From positions 1 through 64,000 of the forward strand of contig CALUNW010000001.1 in NCBI GenBank assembly GCA_944322145.1: DNA of 64,000 bases, in the 5' to 3' direction. The notes under the pieces were generated by a model, which had not been told where the DNA came from, ran no database searches, and was given only the letters and a program-made list of their open reading frames with translations. Below are positions 1 through 63,871 of the stretch, in pieces. The position numbers were made by a program, and so were the translations under genes. The DNA is from an uncultured Atopobiaceae bacterium. GTDB taxonomy: Bacteria; Actinomycetota; Coriobacteriia; Coriobacteriales; Atopobiaceae. Each line of letters starts with the position of its first letter. Positions within the stretch are counted from its first letter, which is position 1.

Positions 1-77
1 AACGCGCCGCATCGCCCCAGGTGCCCAACGCGCCGCATCGCCCCAGGTGCCCAACGCGCCGCATCGCCCCAGGTGCC
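1..77. repeat. Tandem repeat, 26-nt unit, about three copies
   Basis: Three head-to-tail copies of a 26-nt unit start at 1, 27 and 53. Each contains CGCCGCATCGCCCC followed by AGGTGCCC. The last copy runs into the first GGTGCC unit of the palindromic array that follows, so both share the GGTGCC motif. No credible gene covers it. Similar tandem GGTGCC-containing units precede another array copy at 54279, which suggests that slippage repeats grow beside these arrays. Confidence 0.85.
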
Positions 78-260
78 TGATTTCCGAGAAATGCGTGTTT
101 TGGTGCCAAATTACCGAGAAATGCGTGTCTCAGTGCCGGATTTCCGTCAAATGCGTGCGGCAGACACGCATATGGCCGGATTCCGGCACCAGGGGCAATC
201 CGGCACCAGGGGCAATGGGCCGGATTCCGGCACCAGGGGCAATCGGCACCAGGGGTAATC
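72..260. repeat. 26-nt-unit palindromic array (copy 1) with trailing GGCACCAGGGG repeats
   Basis: Three direct 26-nt units (72-97, 102-127, 132-157), each beginning (G)GTGCC and ending AAATGCGTG, are separated by 4-nt spacers. A 7-nt centre (158-164) leads into an inverted unit (165-190) starting CACGCATATGG and ending CCGGCACC. From 191 to 260 the sequence repeats GGCACCAGGGGCAAT several times. The array lies just beyond the 3' end of the PHP gene. The same architecture recurs at 38987, 39068, 54338 and 63753. A role as a bidirectional terminator is inferred from the glnN copy. Confidence 0.85.
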
Positions 261-36865: not shown

Positions 36866-38956
36866 ATGGGCAAGGACAAGGTCTCGCAGGAGTACGGCAG
36901 CCTGCTGTTCACCGACGCGGTGATGCAGGAGCGGCTCCCCAAGCCTACGTACAAGGAGCTTCGCCAGGTCATCGACGACGGCGCGCCGCTTGACCTCGAC
37001 ATCGCAAACGAGGTCGCGCACGCGATGAAGGAGTGGGCGCTCGAGAAGGGCGCCACGCACTTTGCGCATTGGTTCCAGCCGCTCACGGGCATCACGTCCG
37101 AGAAGCACGACAGCTTCCTCACGCCGATCGACGACGGCACGGTGCTCATGTCCTTCTCGGGCAAGGAGCTCGTCCAGGGCGAGCCGGACGCCTCGAGCTT
37201 CCCGAGCGGCGGCCTGCGCGCCACCTTCGAGGCACGCGGCTACACCGCCTGGGACCCCACGAGCCCGGCCTTCATCAAGGACGAGGTGCTCTGCATCCCC
37301 ACCGCCTTCGTCTCCTACACCGGCGAGGCGCTCGACAAGAAGACGCCGCTGCTGCGCTCGCAGGTGGCGCTGGAGACGCAGGCCAAGCGCGTCCTGGCGC
37401 TCTTTGGCCGCGAGCCCAAGCGCGTCTTCACCACCATCGGCCCCGAGCAGGAGTACTTCCTCGTGCGCGAGGAGGACTACGAGAAGCGCCCCGACCTCAT
37501 CTACTGCGGACGCACGCTCTTTGGCTGCGAGCCGGTCAAGGGCCAGGAGCTCGAGGAGCACTACTTCGGCGCCATCCGCCCGACGGTCAACGACTTCATG
37601 AAGGAGGTCGACGACGAGCTCTGGAAGCTCGGCATCCCCGTCAAGACCAAGCACAACGAGGTCGCGCCCGCCCAGCACGAGCTCGCGCCGATCTTCGAGC
37701 AGGGCTCGCTGGCCATCGACGACAACCTCCTCACGATGGAGAAGCTCAAGCTCATGGCCACCCACCACGGCCTGGCCTGCCTCGAGCACGAGAAGCCCTT
37801 CGAGTACGTGAACGGCTCCGGCAAGCACAACAACTGGTCCATCTGCGCCGATGGCAAGAACCTGCTCGAGCCCGGTGACGTGCCGAGCGAGAACCTGCAG
37901 TTCCTAGTGTTCCTCGCCGCTCTCGTCGCCGCCGTTGACGAGCACGCCGACCTGCTGCGCGCCTCCGTGGCCTCCGCGGGCAACGACCACCGCCTCGGCG
38001 CCAACGAGGCTCCTCCCGCGATCATCTCGGTCTTCCTGGGCGACCAGCTCCACGAGATCGTCGAGGCCCTCATCAACAAGGAGGAGCCCGAGGTCCACGA
38101 GGCCGAGCGCATGGACCTGGGCGTGCCCGCCCTGCCCGACCTCCTGCGCGACTCCACGGACCGCAACCGCACCTCGCCCTTCGCCTTCACGGGCAACAAG
38201 TTCGAGTTTCGCATGTGCGGCAGCCAGCAGAACCTGGCCGACCCCAACGTGGTCCTCAACACCGCGGTTGCCGAGCAGTGCGATCGCTTTGCCACCAAGC
38301 TCGAGGGCAAGACCGGCGACGAGTTCACCAACCTCGCCCTGCGCTGGGTGCGCCACACCCTGCGCGACCACCAGCGCGTGCTCTTCGAGGGCAACGGCTA
38401 CTCGGAGGAGTGGGAGCAGGAGGCCGAGCGCCGCGGCCTGCCCAACCTCAAGACCACGCCGGACGCGCTGCCGTGCATGGTCAAGCCCGAGAACGTGGCG
38501 TTCTACGGCAAGTACCACGTCCTCAACGAGGCCGAGATCCACGCGCGCTACGTCTCCAAGGCCGAGCAGTACGCCAAGCTCCTCAACATCGAGGCCAACA
38601 CCATGGTCTACATGGCCACCAACCTCTACCTGCCGGCGCTCTCCGAGTTCTCCGGCGACCTGGCCTCTACCGTGGCCACCAAGGCCGAGATCGGCATCGA
38701 GAGCCCGGTGGAGAAGGAGCTCGTGCGCACGCTGACCGACGGCATCGCCGCCATCCACGAGGCGGCCATCGACCTCGAGGCCAACAACGCCGCGGCGCAC
38801 GCTGTCGAGGACCCGCAGGAGCAGTGCAACGCGTATCGCGATACGGTCCTGCCCTCGATGGAGCACCTGCGCGCCTGCGTCGACGCGATGGAGAAGGTCT
38901 GCGGCGCCGAGTACTGGCCCGTGCCCACCTACAACGAGATGCTGTTCTGGGTGTAG
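36866..38956 (+). CDS. glnN: Type III glutamine synthetase
   Basis: A 696-residue GSIII enzyme that makes glutamine from glutamate, ammonia and ATP. Length (about 700) and motifs set it apart from Gln[22 protein letters not shown] near residue 62, [14 protein letters not shown] near 192, [16 protein letters not shown] near 265, [11 protein letters not shown] near 314 and a type III-specific C-terminus. ATG 36866 follows AAAAGGGG. It is monocistronic with a strong terminator. With gltBD, amtB and glnK nearby it completes ammonia assimilation. GSIII enzymes are not adenylylated like GlnA, which agrees with a PII protein that lacks the modifiable tyrosine. Confidence 0.95.
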
Positions 38957-38986: not shown

Positions 38987-39045
38987 GGTGCCCAAATCGC
39001 CGCATCTGCGTACGTACGATACGCAGATGCGGCTTTTTTGGCACC
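38987..39045. terminator. glnN terminator built as one 26-7-26 palindromic unit pair
   Basis: Stem GCCGCATCTGCGTA (38999-39012) and its complement (39020-39033) is followed by TTTTTT (39034-39039), a textbook terminator. The whole 38987-39045 stretch is one 26-nt unit beginning GGTGCC, a 7-nt centre and one inverted unit ending GGCACC, the same geometry as the arrays at 72, 39068, 54338 and 63753. It links that repeat family to termination. Confidence 0.9.
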
Positions 39046-39067: not shown

Positions 39068-39186
39068 GGTGCCTGATTCCCGAGAAATGCGTGAATCGGT
39101 GCCTGATTTCCGCTGAATGCGTGCGGCGGACACGCATATGGCCGGATTCCGGCACCAATTCACGCATATGGCAGGATTCAGGCACC
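39068..39186. repeat. 26-nt-unit palindromic array (copy 2)
   Basis: Units at 39068-39093 and 39098-39123 begin GGTGCCTGATT and end AATGCGTG. After a 7-nt centre (39124-39130) come inverted units at 39131-39156 and 39161-39186, beginning CACGCATATGG. All spacers within each half are 4 nt. It fills the convergent gap between glnN and the HAD hydrolase. Confidence 0.92.
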
Positions 39187-39257
39187 AGGGGCGGGCCAGG
39201 CCAGGACGGGCCAGGCCAGACCGGGCACAGAGGCGCCGCGCCCGCGTTCTTCTCGCC

Positions 39258-39995
39258 CTACGCGTCGGCCTCGTCGAGGCGCGCCGCGATCTGGGGCAGC
39301 TCGCGCGCGAGGTCGGACATCGGCCCGCGCCAGACGGCGCCCCGCGGCCGGCCGTGCCCCACGTAGGCGGTGCGCAGCCCGCAGTCCGGGCGCACGATGT
39401 CGCGGCGCGCGTCGTTGCCCACCATGAGGCACTCCTCGAGCCGCACGCCCAGCTGGTTGGCGAACTCCTGGTAGTAGCGGACGCTCGGCTTGCAGCGCGT
39501 GGAGTTGGAGTAGGTGGAGACGAGCGCGAAGTCGTCCGTGCCCACGCCGGCCCACGCCATGCGGGCGCGGTCGCAGGCGAGCGAGAAGGTCGGGTTGGTG
39601 GCGAGGGCGCAGGTGAGGCCGGCGGCGTGCACGGCCTCGATCGCCTCGCGGGCGCCCTCGACGGGCCGCGCGTCGACGATGCCCCCGGAGAGGCCGGGGA
39701 CGACCTCGCGCTCGTAGCAGTCCACGAGGTCGTGGATGACGGGGTCGTCGAGGGGGATGCCGCAGGCCGAGAAGAACGTCTGGTTGAAGAGCTGCTCGTT
39801 GGTGAGGGAGTCCGAGCGGTCCTGGGCGTCGATGGCGAGGAAGCTGCGCATGAAGGGGACCGCGAGCGCCGCCGGGCTCATGCGGGCTGCCTCGCCGAGC
39901 AGGCGCGCCGCGCCCGCGACGTAGCGGGCGATGAACGCCGTGAGGTTGAGGCGCAGCAGCGTGTCGTCCAGATCGAAGAGGACCGCCTTGATCAC
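39258..39995 (-). CDS. HAD-superfamily hydrolase
   Basis: A 245-residue haloacid-dehalogenase-type phosphatase. Motif I VLFDLDDTLL (residues 5-14) carries the nucleophile Asp and acid/base Asp. Motif II is LATNP, motif III is the KPS block in STRCKPSVRYYQEF, and motif IV is MVGNDARRDIV. The helical cap (about 18-95) is of C1 type. The start is GTG 39995, preceded by GGGAG; no ATG lies near the motif. Substrate unknown, probably a small phosphometabolite. It is transcribed alone, divergent from rpsA. Confidence 0.85.
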   Translation of the reverse strand: MIKAVLFDLDDTLLRLNLTAFIARYVAGAARLLGEAARMSPAALAVPFMRSFLAIDAQDRSDSLTNEQLFNQTFFSACGIPLDDPVIHDLVDCYEREVVPGLSGGIVDARPVEGAREAIEAVHAAGLTCALATNPTFSLACDRARMAWAGVGTDDFALVSTYSNSTRCKPSVRYYQEFANQLGVRLEECLMVGNDARRDIVRPDCGLRTAYVGHGRPRGAVWRGPMSDLARELPQIAARLDEADA

Positions 39996-53948: not shown

Positions 53949-54233
53949 ATGGCGGCAAAGATCGTGGTGGCATGCGGCTCGGGCGTGGCGACGTCAGAGA
54001 TGGTCGCCGCCAGGCTGCGGCACCTGCTGGTCGAGAAGGGCGTCAAGGCTGAGATCGTGGCCGTGGACGTGGCGCACGTCGACGAGGCGCTCGCGGACGC
54101 CGACGTCTTCGTCCCCGTGGTCAAGCCCGAGCACGACTACGACGTCCCCACCGTGAGCGGCGTCGCCTTCCTCACCGGCATGAACCAGGACAAGGAGCTC
54201 GACCGCCTGCTCGCGCTTCTCGACGAGCGCTAG
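53949..54233 (+). CDS. Orphan PTS IIB subunit, galactitol type
   Basis: A 94-residue EIIB-like protein. The phosphorylated cysteine is in VVACGSGVATSEMVAARL at residue 9, the P-loop form of galactitol/SgcB-type IIB. The rest has alternating strands and helices. GGGGAGGG precedes ATG 53949, one base after the previous stop. No IIA or IIC gene is near, so it either serves a distant transporter or has a regulatory role. Confidence 0.8.
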   Translation: MAAKIVVACGSGVATSEMVAARLRHLLVEKGVKAEIVAVDVAHVDEALADADVFVPVVKPEHDYDVPTVSGVAFLTGMNQDKELDRLLALLDER

Positions 54234-54278
54234 CCCGACTCCGCGCCCGCGAGCCCGCCCTCGGTGCCGCGCTACGCC

Positions 54279-54336
54279 CGGTGCCCGCGCCGCGCCAGCG
54301 CCACCCCCGGTGCCCGCGCTGCGCCAGCGCCACCCC
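54279..54336. repeat. Tandem repeat, 29-nt unit
   Basis: Two nearly identical 29-nt units, beginning CGGTGCCCGCGC and ending GCGCCACCCC, start at 54279 and 54308. They run into the first GGTGCC unit of the palindromic array, as at the left edge of the window. Confidence 0.85.
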
Positions 54337-54337
54337 C

Positions 54338-54493
54338 GGTGCCAGAGTCATGCCAAATGCGTGTTTTGGTGCCAGAAAACCGTTATATGAGCGTATCGGT
54401 GCCTAATTCGCGCCATATGCGTGCCTCGGACACGCATATGGCGCGATTCTGGCACCGGCGCCGAGAACACGCATATGGCCCGATTCCGGCACC
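54338..54493. repeat. 26-nt-unit palindromic array (copy 3)
   Basis: Direct units at 54338-54363, 54368-54393 and 54398-54423 (each starting GGTGCC, 4-nt spacers) meet a 7-nt centre. The inverted unit 54431-54456 (CACGCATATGGCGCG) follows, then a further inverted unit at 54468-54493 after an 11-nt gap. It lies between the convergent IIB and flavoprotein genes; the 267-nt gap has no gene. Confidence 0.9.
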
Positions 54494-54500
54494 AGCGAAA

Positions 54501-56174
54501 TCAGCGAGAAGCGCGCGCCGAGTACGCTGCCACGATCTTCTCGGCGGCGAGGATGCCGTCGGTGGCGGCGCTCATGATGCCGCCCGCGTAGCCCGCGCCC
54601 TCGCCCACGGGCCAGAGGCCGCGCACGCCCACGCTCTGCCCGTCGTCGCCGCGGGTCACGCGCACCGGCGAGCTCGAGCGCGTCTCCACGCCCGTGAGCA
54701 CGGCATCCGCAGCGTCAAAGCCGCGGAGCTTGCGCCCGAGCGCGGGAATCGCCGCGCGCAGCGTCTCCGTCACGTAGCCCGGCAGGCACGGGGTCACGTC
54801 GCCCCACGCCACGCCGCGCGGGTAGGTGGGCGCCACGCGTCCGCCGGCGCTCGACGGCGCCCCTGCCAGGAAGTCTCCCACGAGCTGGGCCGGCGCCACG
54901 TACGCGCCGCCGCCCGCCGCAAAGGCCGCCCGCTCGCAGGCCCACTGCAGCTCCACGCCCGCCAGCACGTCGTCGCCGGGCAGGTCCTCGGGGAAGACGT
55001 TGGCGAGCAGCCCCGAGTTGGCGTTTGCGCCGGCGCGGTCGGAGAGGCTCATGCCGTTGGTGCAGACGCCGCCGGGCTCGCTCGCTGCGGAGACTACGTA
55101 GCCGCCGGGACACATGCAAAACGAGAAGGCGCTCCGCCCGGAGGGCAGGTGGCAGGAGAGGCTGTAGGGCGCCGCGCCGAGCGCGGGGTGGCCCGCCGCC
55201 TCCCCGTAGAGCGCGCGATCGACGTCAGCCTGCAGGTGCTCGATGCGCACGCCCATCGCGAAGGTCTTGCGCTCCATGGGCACGCCGCGCTCGCGCAGCA
55301 GCCCGAAGACGTCGCGCGCGGAGTGCCCGCAGCACAGCACCACGCAGTCCGAGGCCACGCGCTCCTCACAGACGCTTCCATCGTAACGCGTGGTCGAAAG
55401 CGTGACGCCGCGCACCTCTCCGCCAGAGACGTCGAGGTCGGTCATGCGGCAGCGGCAGCGGACCTCGCCGCCCGCCTCCTCGATCTGGCGCACGATGTCG
55501 GTCACCACGCGCGGCAGCACGTCGCTGCCCACATGGGGCTTGGCGTCCCAGAGGATCTCGCGCTGCGCCCCCGCGGCGACGAAGGTCTCGAGGATGAGGC
55601 GGTGCGCCGGGCTCTTGGTGCCCGTCTGGAGCTTGCCGTCGGAGAAGGTCCCCGCGCCGCCGACGCCAAACTGGATGTTGCTCTCGGGGTCGAGCGCGCC
55701 GGTCTCGTCGTGGAGGCGCACGATCTCGCCGCGACGGGCCGCGTCGTCTCCGCGCTCGACGAGCAGCGGCTCGAGGCCGGCCCGCGCGAGCGAGAGCGCG
55801 CAGAACAGGCCCGCGCACCCGGCGCCGATGACGACCGGGCGCGGCGCGTCGCGACGCTCGACGCGCTCCGGAAAGCCGAAGGGGCGCTCGTCCACGATGC
55901 GCACGTTCTTGTCGGCACGCTTCTTGGCAAGGCGGGCGAGAAGTGCCCGCTCCTCCGCCGCTCCTCCCGCGAGCTCGATGCGCAGCGTGAACGTGATCTG
56001 CACGTCACCGCGCTTGCGGGCGTCGATCGAGCGGCGCCTGCGCTCGACGGTCGCGAGGTCCTTCTCGCCAACGCGCAGCTTGCGCGCGACGGCGCGGCGG
56101 CAGGCGGCGAGCTCGCGAGCGTCGGAGCCGTCGAGCGCGGAGAGGGGGATGCGGATCCCGGAGACCTCGAGCAT
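54501..56174 (-). CDS. NAD(FAD)-utilising dehydrogenase (COG2509-like)
   Basis: A 557-residue flavoprotein. The N-terminal about 90 residues form a small basic domain (IRIPLSALDG, RRRSIDARKRGDVQITFTLRI). The FAD-binding motif VIGAGCAGLFCALSLARAG lies near residue 118, and later GVGGAGTFSDGKLQTG, CMCPGGYVVSAASEPGGVCTNG and GAGYAGGIMSAATDG. Members of this family are annotated as dehydrogenases without known substrate. ATG 56174 follows AAAGGA. It has the same strand as the next flavoprotein, but 203 nt separate them and a short AT-rich stretch (TAGTACTACC) may be its promoter. Confidence 0.85.
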   Translation of the reverse strand: MLEVSGIRIPLSALDGSDARELAACRRAVARKLRVGEKDLATVERRRRSIDARKRGDVQITFTLRIELAGGAAEERALLARLAKKRADKNVRIVDERPFGFPERVERRDAPRPVVIGAGCAGLFCALSLARAGLEPLLVERGDDAARRGEIVRLHDETGALDPESNIQFGVGGAGTFSDGKLQTGTKSPAHRLILETFVAAGAQREILWDAKPHVGSDVLPRVVTDIVRQIEEAGGEVRCRCRMTDLDVSGGEVRGVTLSTTRYDGSVCEERVASDCVVLCCGHSARDVFGLLRERGVPMERKTFAMGVRIEHLQADVDRALYGEAAGHPALGAAPYSLSCHLPSGRSAFSFCMCPGGYVVSAASEPGGVCTNGMSLSDRAGANANSGLLANVFPEDLPGDDVLAGVELQWACERAAFAAGGGAYVAPAQLVGDFLAGAPSSAGGRVAPTYPRGVAWGDVTPCLPGYVTETLRAAIPALGRKLRGFDAADAVLTGVETRSSSPVRVTRGDDGQSVGVRGLWPVGEGAGYAGGIMSAATDGILAAEKIVAAYSARASR

Positions 56175-63165: not shown

Positions 63166-63663
63166 ATGGCGCGGCGTGAGAAGTTCCAGAAGACCAACGC
63201 GATGCGCGAGCTCGAGGCGGCCGGCGTGCCCTTCGAGTACGAGACCTACGAGGTGGATGAGACGGACACCTCGAGCGAGCTCGGGCTGCACATCGCGCAG
63301 CGCCTGGGCGAGGACCCCGCCGCGAGCTTCAAGACGCTCGTCTGCGTGACGCCGGCGGGCGAGCACGTGGTCTGCTGCATCCCCGTGGCCGACGAGCTCG
63401 ACCTCAAGAAGGCCGCCGCGGCGGCGGGTGAGAAGAGCCTCTCGCTGATGCACGTCCGCGATCTCGAGCCGGTCACGGGCTACGTCCGCGGCGGCTGCTC
63501 GCCGGTTGGCATGAAGAAGCGCTTTCCCACGCTGGTCGACGAGACCGCGCAGCTCTTCGAGAAGATCCACGTCTCGGGCGGGCGCCGCGGCCTCTCGCTG
63601 ATCATCGCCCCGGACGACCTCGCGGCATTCTGCGACGCCACCCTCGCCGACATCGTCCGCTGA
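63166..63663 (+). CDS. ybaK: Cys-tRNA(Pro)/Cys-tRNA(Cys) deacylase
   Basis: A 165-residue YbaK/EbsC-family editing enzyme, which hydrolyses mischarged Cys-tRNA(Pro). Conserved blocks are TNAMRELEAAGVPFEYETYEVD, FKTLVCVTPAGEHVVCCIPV, VADELDLKKAAAAAGEK and the GYVRGGCSPVGMKKRFPTLVDE loop. GGGGGAG precedes ATG 63166. It lies a few bases after uvrA and may be expressed with it. Length is normal for the family. Confidence 0.92.
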   Translation: MARREKFQKTNAMRELEAAGVPFEYETYEVDETDTSSELGLHIAQRLGEDPAASFKTLVCVTPAGEHVVCCIPVADELDLKKAAAAAGEKSLSLMHVRDLEPVTGYVRGGCSPVGMKKRFPTLVDETAQLFEKIHVSGGRRGLSLIIAPDDLAAFCDATLADIVR

Positions 63664-63752: not shown

Positions 63753-63871
63753 GGTGCCGGATTCCCGCCAAATGCGCGAAATGGTGCCTGATTTCCGCCA
63801 TATGCGTGTCTCAGACACGCATTTCTCGGTAATTTGGCACCATTTCGCGCATTTGGCGGAAATCCGGCACC
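63753..63871. repeat. 26-nt-unit palindromic array (copy 4)
   Basis: Units 63753-63778 and 63783-63808 (spacer AAAT) meet a 7-nt centre TCTCAGA. Inverted units follow at 63816-63841 and 63846-63871 (spacer ATTT). Outer arms match at 40 of 41 bases from 63748 to 63876, so the copy is almost perfectly symmetric. It sits between convergent ybaK and the RHH gene. Confidence 0.93.

Follow-up and report, generated by a model that had tools for sequence, protein, structure and literature searches.

The palindromic array at positions 39068-39186 of the window, by which we mean the whole stretch of 64,000 nucleotides analysed here, raises the question of what kind of repeat it represents, and of what spreads or maintains repeats of this form. 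The window belongs to G000, a 2.4-Mb genome in 25 contigs from an uncultured, Olsenella-like gut bacterium, and was compared with the genomes of congeners, two of which (G006 and G018) are ~95% identical to and syntenic with G000. Array counts are samples taken from genome stretches and models, several of the genomes being incomplete MAGs, and genes were called with a simple codon-usage finder trained on GC content at codon positions, which does not amount to curated annotation.

Architecture of the arrays

A sequence-only reading of the window had pointed to five places (starting at 72, 38987, 39068, 54338 and 63753) carrying 26-nt units around 7-nt centres; all of them are present, with units of the form GGTGCC-N13-ATGCGTG. 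The fixed formula 26-4-26-7-26-4-26 proposed for the arrays describes 39068-39186 and 63753-63871, but not 72-190 (>4>4>7<) or 54338-54493 (>4>4>7<11<). The array at 39068..39186 is a 2|2 block of four units (39068-39093 and 39098-39123 on the forward strand, 39131-39156 and 39161-39186 on the reverse; gaps of 4, 7 and 4 nt), located between the convergent genes for a type III glutamine synthetase (36866-38956, +) and a HAD hydrolase (39258-39995, -), a spacer that holds differing palindromes in the 28 congeners compared. At 38987..39045, 30 nt 3' of the glutamine synthetase gene, two divergent units face each other (>7<), and their sequence has the form of a canonical intrinsic terminator with a T6 tract, GCCGCATCTGCGTA-N7-TACGCAGATGCGGC-TTTTTT. 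The second 2|2 array, at 63753..63871 (units from 63753+, 63783+, 63816- and 63846-; gaps 4, 7 and 4), lies 89 nt 3' of a tRNA_edit-domain gene (63166-63663, +). The four-unit array at 72..190 is of the 3|1 type (72-97+, 102-127+, 132-157+ and 165-190-; gaps 4, 4 and 7), 91 nt beyond the 3' end of a PHP-domain gene (282-1259, -), and so is the one at 54338..54493 (54338+, 54368+, 54398+ and 54431-; gaps 4, 4 and 7), which has an additional outer unit at 54468- separated by 11 nt and is flanked by convergent genes for a PTS IIB-like protein (53949-54233, +) and a FAD-dependent protein (54501-56174, -). At this last locus the four-unit core is also found in G006 and G018, and the outer unit, of those two, in G006 only. 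Next to the arrays at 72 and 54338, positions 1-71 and 54264-54337 are taken up by degenerate tandem repeats that contain GGTGCC (e.g., GGTGCCCAACGCGCCGCATCGCCCCA, with a period of 26). A further short word, CGAGAAGAAC / GTTCTTCTCG (e.g., at 39248-39257), is very frequent genus-wide, with 212 copies in 0.68 Mb of G000 versus 6 of the reversed word. An Rfam search of the window returned no match.

Among arrays sampled from G000, G006 and G018, the compact block consists of exactly four 26-nt units in 76 of 88, and the single arrays of G003, G005 and G010 likewise have four. The centre had been described as always 7 nt long, which was confirmed at every facing (tail-tail) gap (87/87). The 4-nt spacer proved to be the majority form, being found at 139 of the 199 same-direction (head-to-tail) gaps, with 5 nt at 22 and 3 nt at 5; head-tail adjacencies thus number 199 versus 87 tail-tail ones. 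The idea of one palindromic arrangement did not stand: of 62 blocks, 27 were 2|2, 13 were 3|1, 13 were 1|3 and 9 were of other types, 1|3 and 3|1 together being as common as 2|2. The orientation switch may fall 3' of unit 1, 2 or 3, and therefore the symmetric formula is one form among three. Covariation of units as pairs, also raised earlier, was detected for facing pairs when a diverse set was analysed (score 0.177 vs 0.129 shuffled), whereas the common 2|2 arrays showed none. A long hairpin with covarying arms was discarded for the 2|2 arrays, holding in part for the facing pair of the diverse set; within the unit, positions 6-14 and 7-13, the inner pairs, mostly do not form standard pairs, nor do they covary. 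The period of 30-31 nt fits the proposal of a protein lattice on putative binding sites, for which a candidate partner protein is described below.

Abundance, drift and sequence dialects

Units occur far above chance, which is excluded by counts in real versus reversed sequence: at a threshold of 12 bits, 464 kb of G000 contain 128 units, versus 0 when the sequence is reversed, and the whole genome, allowing up to 2 mismatches, contains 134/131 matches against 45/35 for the reversed pattern (about 265 vs 80). Searching with a covariance model built on the facing pair recovered 43 arrays in G000 (86 matches over both strands) and, in G006 and G018, 35 and 27, respectively, so that the genome-wide search suggested by the sequence-only reading yielded dozens of copies beyond those of the window, and from 0 to a few in the other congeners. 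Elsewhere, exact matches to the facing pair were restricted to uncultured Atopobiaceae MAGs and two Olsenella isolates; the array sequence had zero matches in 15 other genera searched, and the facing pair had no exact match among IMG/VR phages.

Spacing that persists while sequence drifts, another feature of the original description, is evident between orthologous arrays of G000, G006 and G018, with identical geometry in 18 of 26 comparisons; the remainder mostly involve whole units gained or lost, or a spacer altered by one base. In the 18 comparisons of same geometry, substitutions amount to 3.7% in GGTGCC, 7.1% in ATGCGTG, 13% in the middle of the unit, rising to 17% in spacers of 4 nt and to 29% in the centre of 7 nt, and gene conversion among units could contribute to this sequence constraint. 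Orthologous sites devoid of an array can hold another palindrome, such as a GTGACAATTAGGACAGG element in G018 or a GGGGACAG element in G006. At a separate locus, two full arrays enclose a Fic-type toxin gene, with a HPFREGNGRTQR motif, together with a small ORF upstream of it (L043:9691-10960; G000:C1:73691-74960); there is one array there in G006, and an IS1595-like element is inside the array in G018.

Weaker matches to the covariance model in G001, G002, G011, G017 and G042 were read directly and displayed the same architecture with another consensus. Dialect D1 has a 4/7 spacing, and AGGGGTTT often follows its arrays; D2 (G001 and G011), with consensus tGCGCCGgAtTnggcgCnaCTGCGTg, has gaps of 5 nt in 26/34 and of 7 nt in 7/11; and D3 (G002, G017 and G042), with consensus tGcGCCgGAtTcgccGGatnTGTGCG, has gaps of 5 nt in 22/31 and tail-tail gaps of 8 nt in 12/12. 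Therefore, spacing is largely uniform within a dialect and differs by up to one base between dialects, and the persistence of geometry despite drift extends to related species, which keep the 26-nt unit, each with its own uniform spacings. A fourth dialect, AAGTGAGCG-N8-CGCTCACTT, was derived in G041 from the flanks of the gene discussed below, with 2 copies at the gene, 1 elsewhere in that genome and 0 in four other genomes.

A gene bracketed by arrays and its protein family

Comparison of array neighbours across dialects led to a gene with an array on each side, first in G000, G006, G002 and G042. In G000 it is located outside the window, at G000:C1:173940-174965 (-), and its product has ~340 aa. 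Close homologues of the protein (>440 bits) are encoded by 8 of 31 congeners (G000, G006, G002, G042, G021, G001, G011 and G041), and in 8/8 the gene has a multi-unit array in the local dialect on either side; these loci constitute one syntenic neighbourhood or share a common neighbour, and therefore are not eight independent events. Across the 31 congeners, gene and arrays co-occur with a Fisher p of about 1e-3 (6/2/2/21), or about 1e-4 when G021, where arrays flank the gene, is counted, both values being without phylogenetic correction. G018, with its 27 arrays, has no close cognate gene (the genome is 91% complete), and G043 has arrays and no cognate gene. At the corresponding locus, G018 retains the flanks and a single array with the gene absent, and the gene has opposite orientations in G000 and G006 within collinear, conserved flanks. 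Neither a clean empty target site nor a target duplication was seen. Silent divergence is raised three- to fourfold in this gene (dS 0.48) over the neighbouring genes (0.11 and 0.16); its dN/dS of 0.19 indicates purifying selection on a gene whose history resembles exchange or replacement.

Searched alone, the cognate protein matched nothing in Pfam, NCBIfam or PDB. It belongs to a family with 4-13 members per congener, which 94 of the 120 genomes sampled across the order encode. Of 39 members, 11 distant ones match PF18741 REase_MTES_1575 (best 2.6e-6) and 4, also distant, match DUF559 (best 2.3e-4), and the family profile matches PDB 3r3p ('mobile intron protein') with E=0.0044. In the alignment of the 39 members, D229 and H256 are invariant and E184 is conserved in at least 90%, and we infer that these residues form a catalytic motif. 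Taken as remote similarity and not as proof, these matches suggest a Vsr-like PD-(D/E)xK domain. The partner protein has no relatives in IMG/VR, and a literature search, which does not show that none exists, found no description of the arrays or of the protein family. The family is apparently undescribed, uncurated, very common and nuclease-like.

Other family members are flanked by repeats of other kinds: a word of at least 12 nt common to both flanks was found for 28/32 family members versus 49/307 control genes, the latter including some family members. For a second member the flanking palindrome is GACCCAAATCCGGATTTGGGTC; the two genomes that carry this member, G000 and G018, have 31 and 49 copies, respectively, compared with 4 in G006 and 1 in G010, near relatives, and 0 in four others. 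This palindrome also recurs at regular distances, of 135 nt in G018 (C5, C16 and C28) and 164 nt in G000 (C5:196330-196679), a further case of fixed geometry. Outside the genus the signal is weaker, with a flanking word of at least 13 nt in 6/20 members versus 2/105 control windows. Several members outside the genus (L269, L272, L277, L278 and L282) have long repeated flanking palindromes, and in some of these a box resembling CCTGGTGTTT/CCACCAGGGGTTT lies inside.

Competing explanations and relation to known systems

We consider it probable that the arrays are dispersed cognate sites of a repeat-plus-protein system whose protein is the product of the array-bracketed gene. In favour of this are the bracketing, the co-occurrence, the inversion, absence and raised dS of the gene, the uniformly spaced dialects, the flanking repeats of other family members, the nuclease signature and the constraint within arrays; against it count the shared neighbourhood of the eight loci, the arrays of G018 and G043 in genomes lacking a close cognate gene, the failure to see a clean empty target site or a target duplication, the remoteness of the nuclease assignment and the weaker flanking signal outside the genus. 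The partner protein, with its remote Vsr-like/PD-(D/E)xK signature, would bind the units cooperatively at four sites spaced about three helical turns apart; binding or cutting would allow the gene to insert at, or be exchanged between, arrays in a homing-like manner, and the protein would drive the spread of arrays or the homogenisation of their sequence. Copies arising 3' of genes would be tolerated, some serving as terminators.

That last point touches on an alternative in which the arrays are bidirectional transcription terminators or protectors of mRNA 3' ends, without a dedicated protein. Arrays are placed just 3' of gene ends and avoid divergent promoters: 0 of 63 array clusters overlap predicted genes; their contexts are convergent in 18, tandem in 39 and divergent in 3 (3/60), whereas all spacers of 150 bp or more divide into 49, 130 and 66, respectively; and in tandem spacers the array is closer to the upstream stop in 43/49. 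Canonical terminators overlap the array at 25 of 101 array-bearing gene ends, the pair at 38987 is itself one, and RNA folds of 2|2 arrays are far stabler than those of shuffled sequences (mean z -11), all of which agrees with termination. However, most arrays have no U tract, no clear depletion of other terminators was found beside arrays, and mid-stem pairing is not kept in 2|2 arrays; moreover, termination leaves the four-unit rule, the dialects and the bracketed gene unexplained. We regard this alternative as unlikely on its own, and terminator or mRNA-end functions may be compatible with the repeat-plus-protein explanation. Less probable still is that the arrays serve a protein that structures the chromosome or acts on supercoiling (gyrase- or nucleoid-like, as in BIME-2) and has no connection with the bracketed gene: a fixed length of ~120 bp, a 30-31 nt period, constraint on specific bases and placement at the ends of genes, where supercoils accumulate, would suit such a protein, yet the restriction of arrays to a minority of congeners and the dialect shifts between species would be odd for a house-keeping factor, which likewise would not account for the bracketed gene.

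The arrays resemble REP/BIME-RAYT systems in being dispersed extragenic inverted repeats, of high copy number and lineage-specific, and in having inverted copies on both sides of a cognate gene (PMC2817692, PMC3116915), and the genus does carry RAYT-like Y1 transposase genes (Y1_Tnp, PF01797), three of them in G000 (C6:173159-173491, C11:34805-35128 and C11:74538-74876). REPs have a GTAG or CGTC tag and form head-head or tail-tail dimers, head-tail ones being rare (PMC3733652), whereas the 26-nt units described here are mainly head-to-tail with one facing pair under a four-unit rule, and their consensus has neither such a tag nor a covarying stem inside the unit. Thus, of the features of REP/BIME-RAYT systems, extragenic position and high copy number were found, but not an imperfectly palindromic unit with a conserved stem, the tag and dimer form, or a RAYT bracketed by the same repeat. 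The 19 RAYT loci retrieved lack units; the 15 that were read have other flanks, mostly palindromes of their own, typically of the GGGGACAG type, as is mostly the case on both sides of the three genes of G000. RAYTs are present in most congeners irrespective of arrays, and their genes occupy the same few chromosomal sites in several of them. On adjacency at the loci examined and on distribution, a RAYT was rejected as the driver of the arrays; of the explanations weighed here, the least probable is that the arrays are classical REP/BIME elements moved by a REP-associated tyrosine transposase. The best reading of the repeat-plus-protein system is by analogy, as a counterpart of REP-RAYT whose partner would be unrelated to it, bearing no similarity to HUH/Y1 enzymes, and nuclease-like.

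Other known systems are similar in part. BOX and other modular intergenic repeats consist of modular units near genes, as the arrays do; unlike them, the arrays have a tightly fixed unit number and spacing, and bracket a partner gene. DNA uptake sequences have genus-wide dialects and are often located at terminators; the arrays differ from them in consisting of four 26-nt units and in numbering tens of copies. EDxHD / Vsr-like homing endonucleases (PDB 3r3p) share remote sequence similarity with the C-terminal half of the partner protein, and also a fast-evolving gene, with high silent divergence, sitting in its presumed target; in contrast, neither intron nor intein was seen here, and the target would be an intergenic array present in many copies.

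These findings suggest a previously unrecognised kind of repeat that is spread or maintained by its own protein. More tentatively, and with somewhat less than even confidence, we propose that mobile or domesticated elements exist throughout this order of gut actinobacteria in which multi-copy Vsr-like nuclease genes would each have a coevolving family of palindromic arrays seeded 3' of genes, a counterpart of REP-RAYT with a different enzyme, and with dialect and spacing set by the protein. Dispersed palindromic repeats are widespread in bacteria, and RAYT transposases are their best described drivers. Here, a protein family of another type, uncurated and very abundant, is tied to repeats of its own by bracketing, co-occurrence and matched dialects. 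If this is correct, many lineage-specific intergenic palindromes in the order would be accounted for, the dialects would constitute a natural protein-DNA series for the study of recognition coevolution, and the arrays would provide a testable case of constant geometry under changing sequence.
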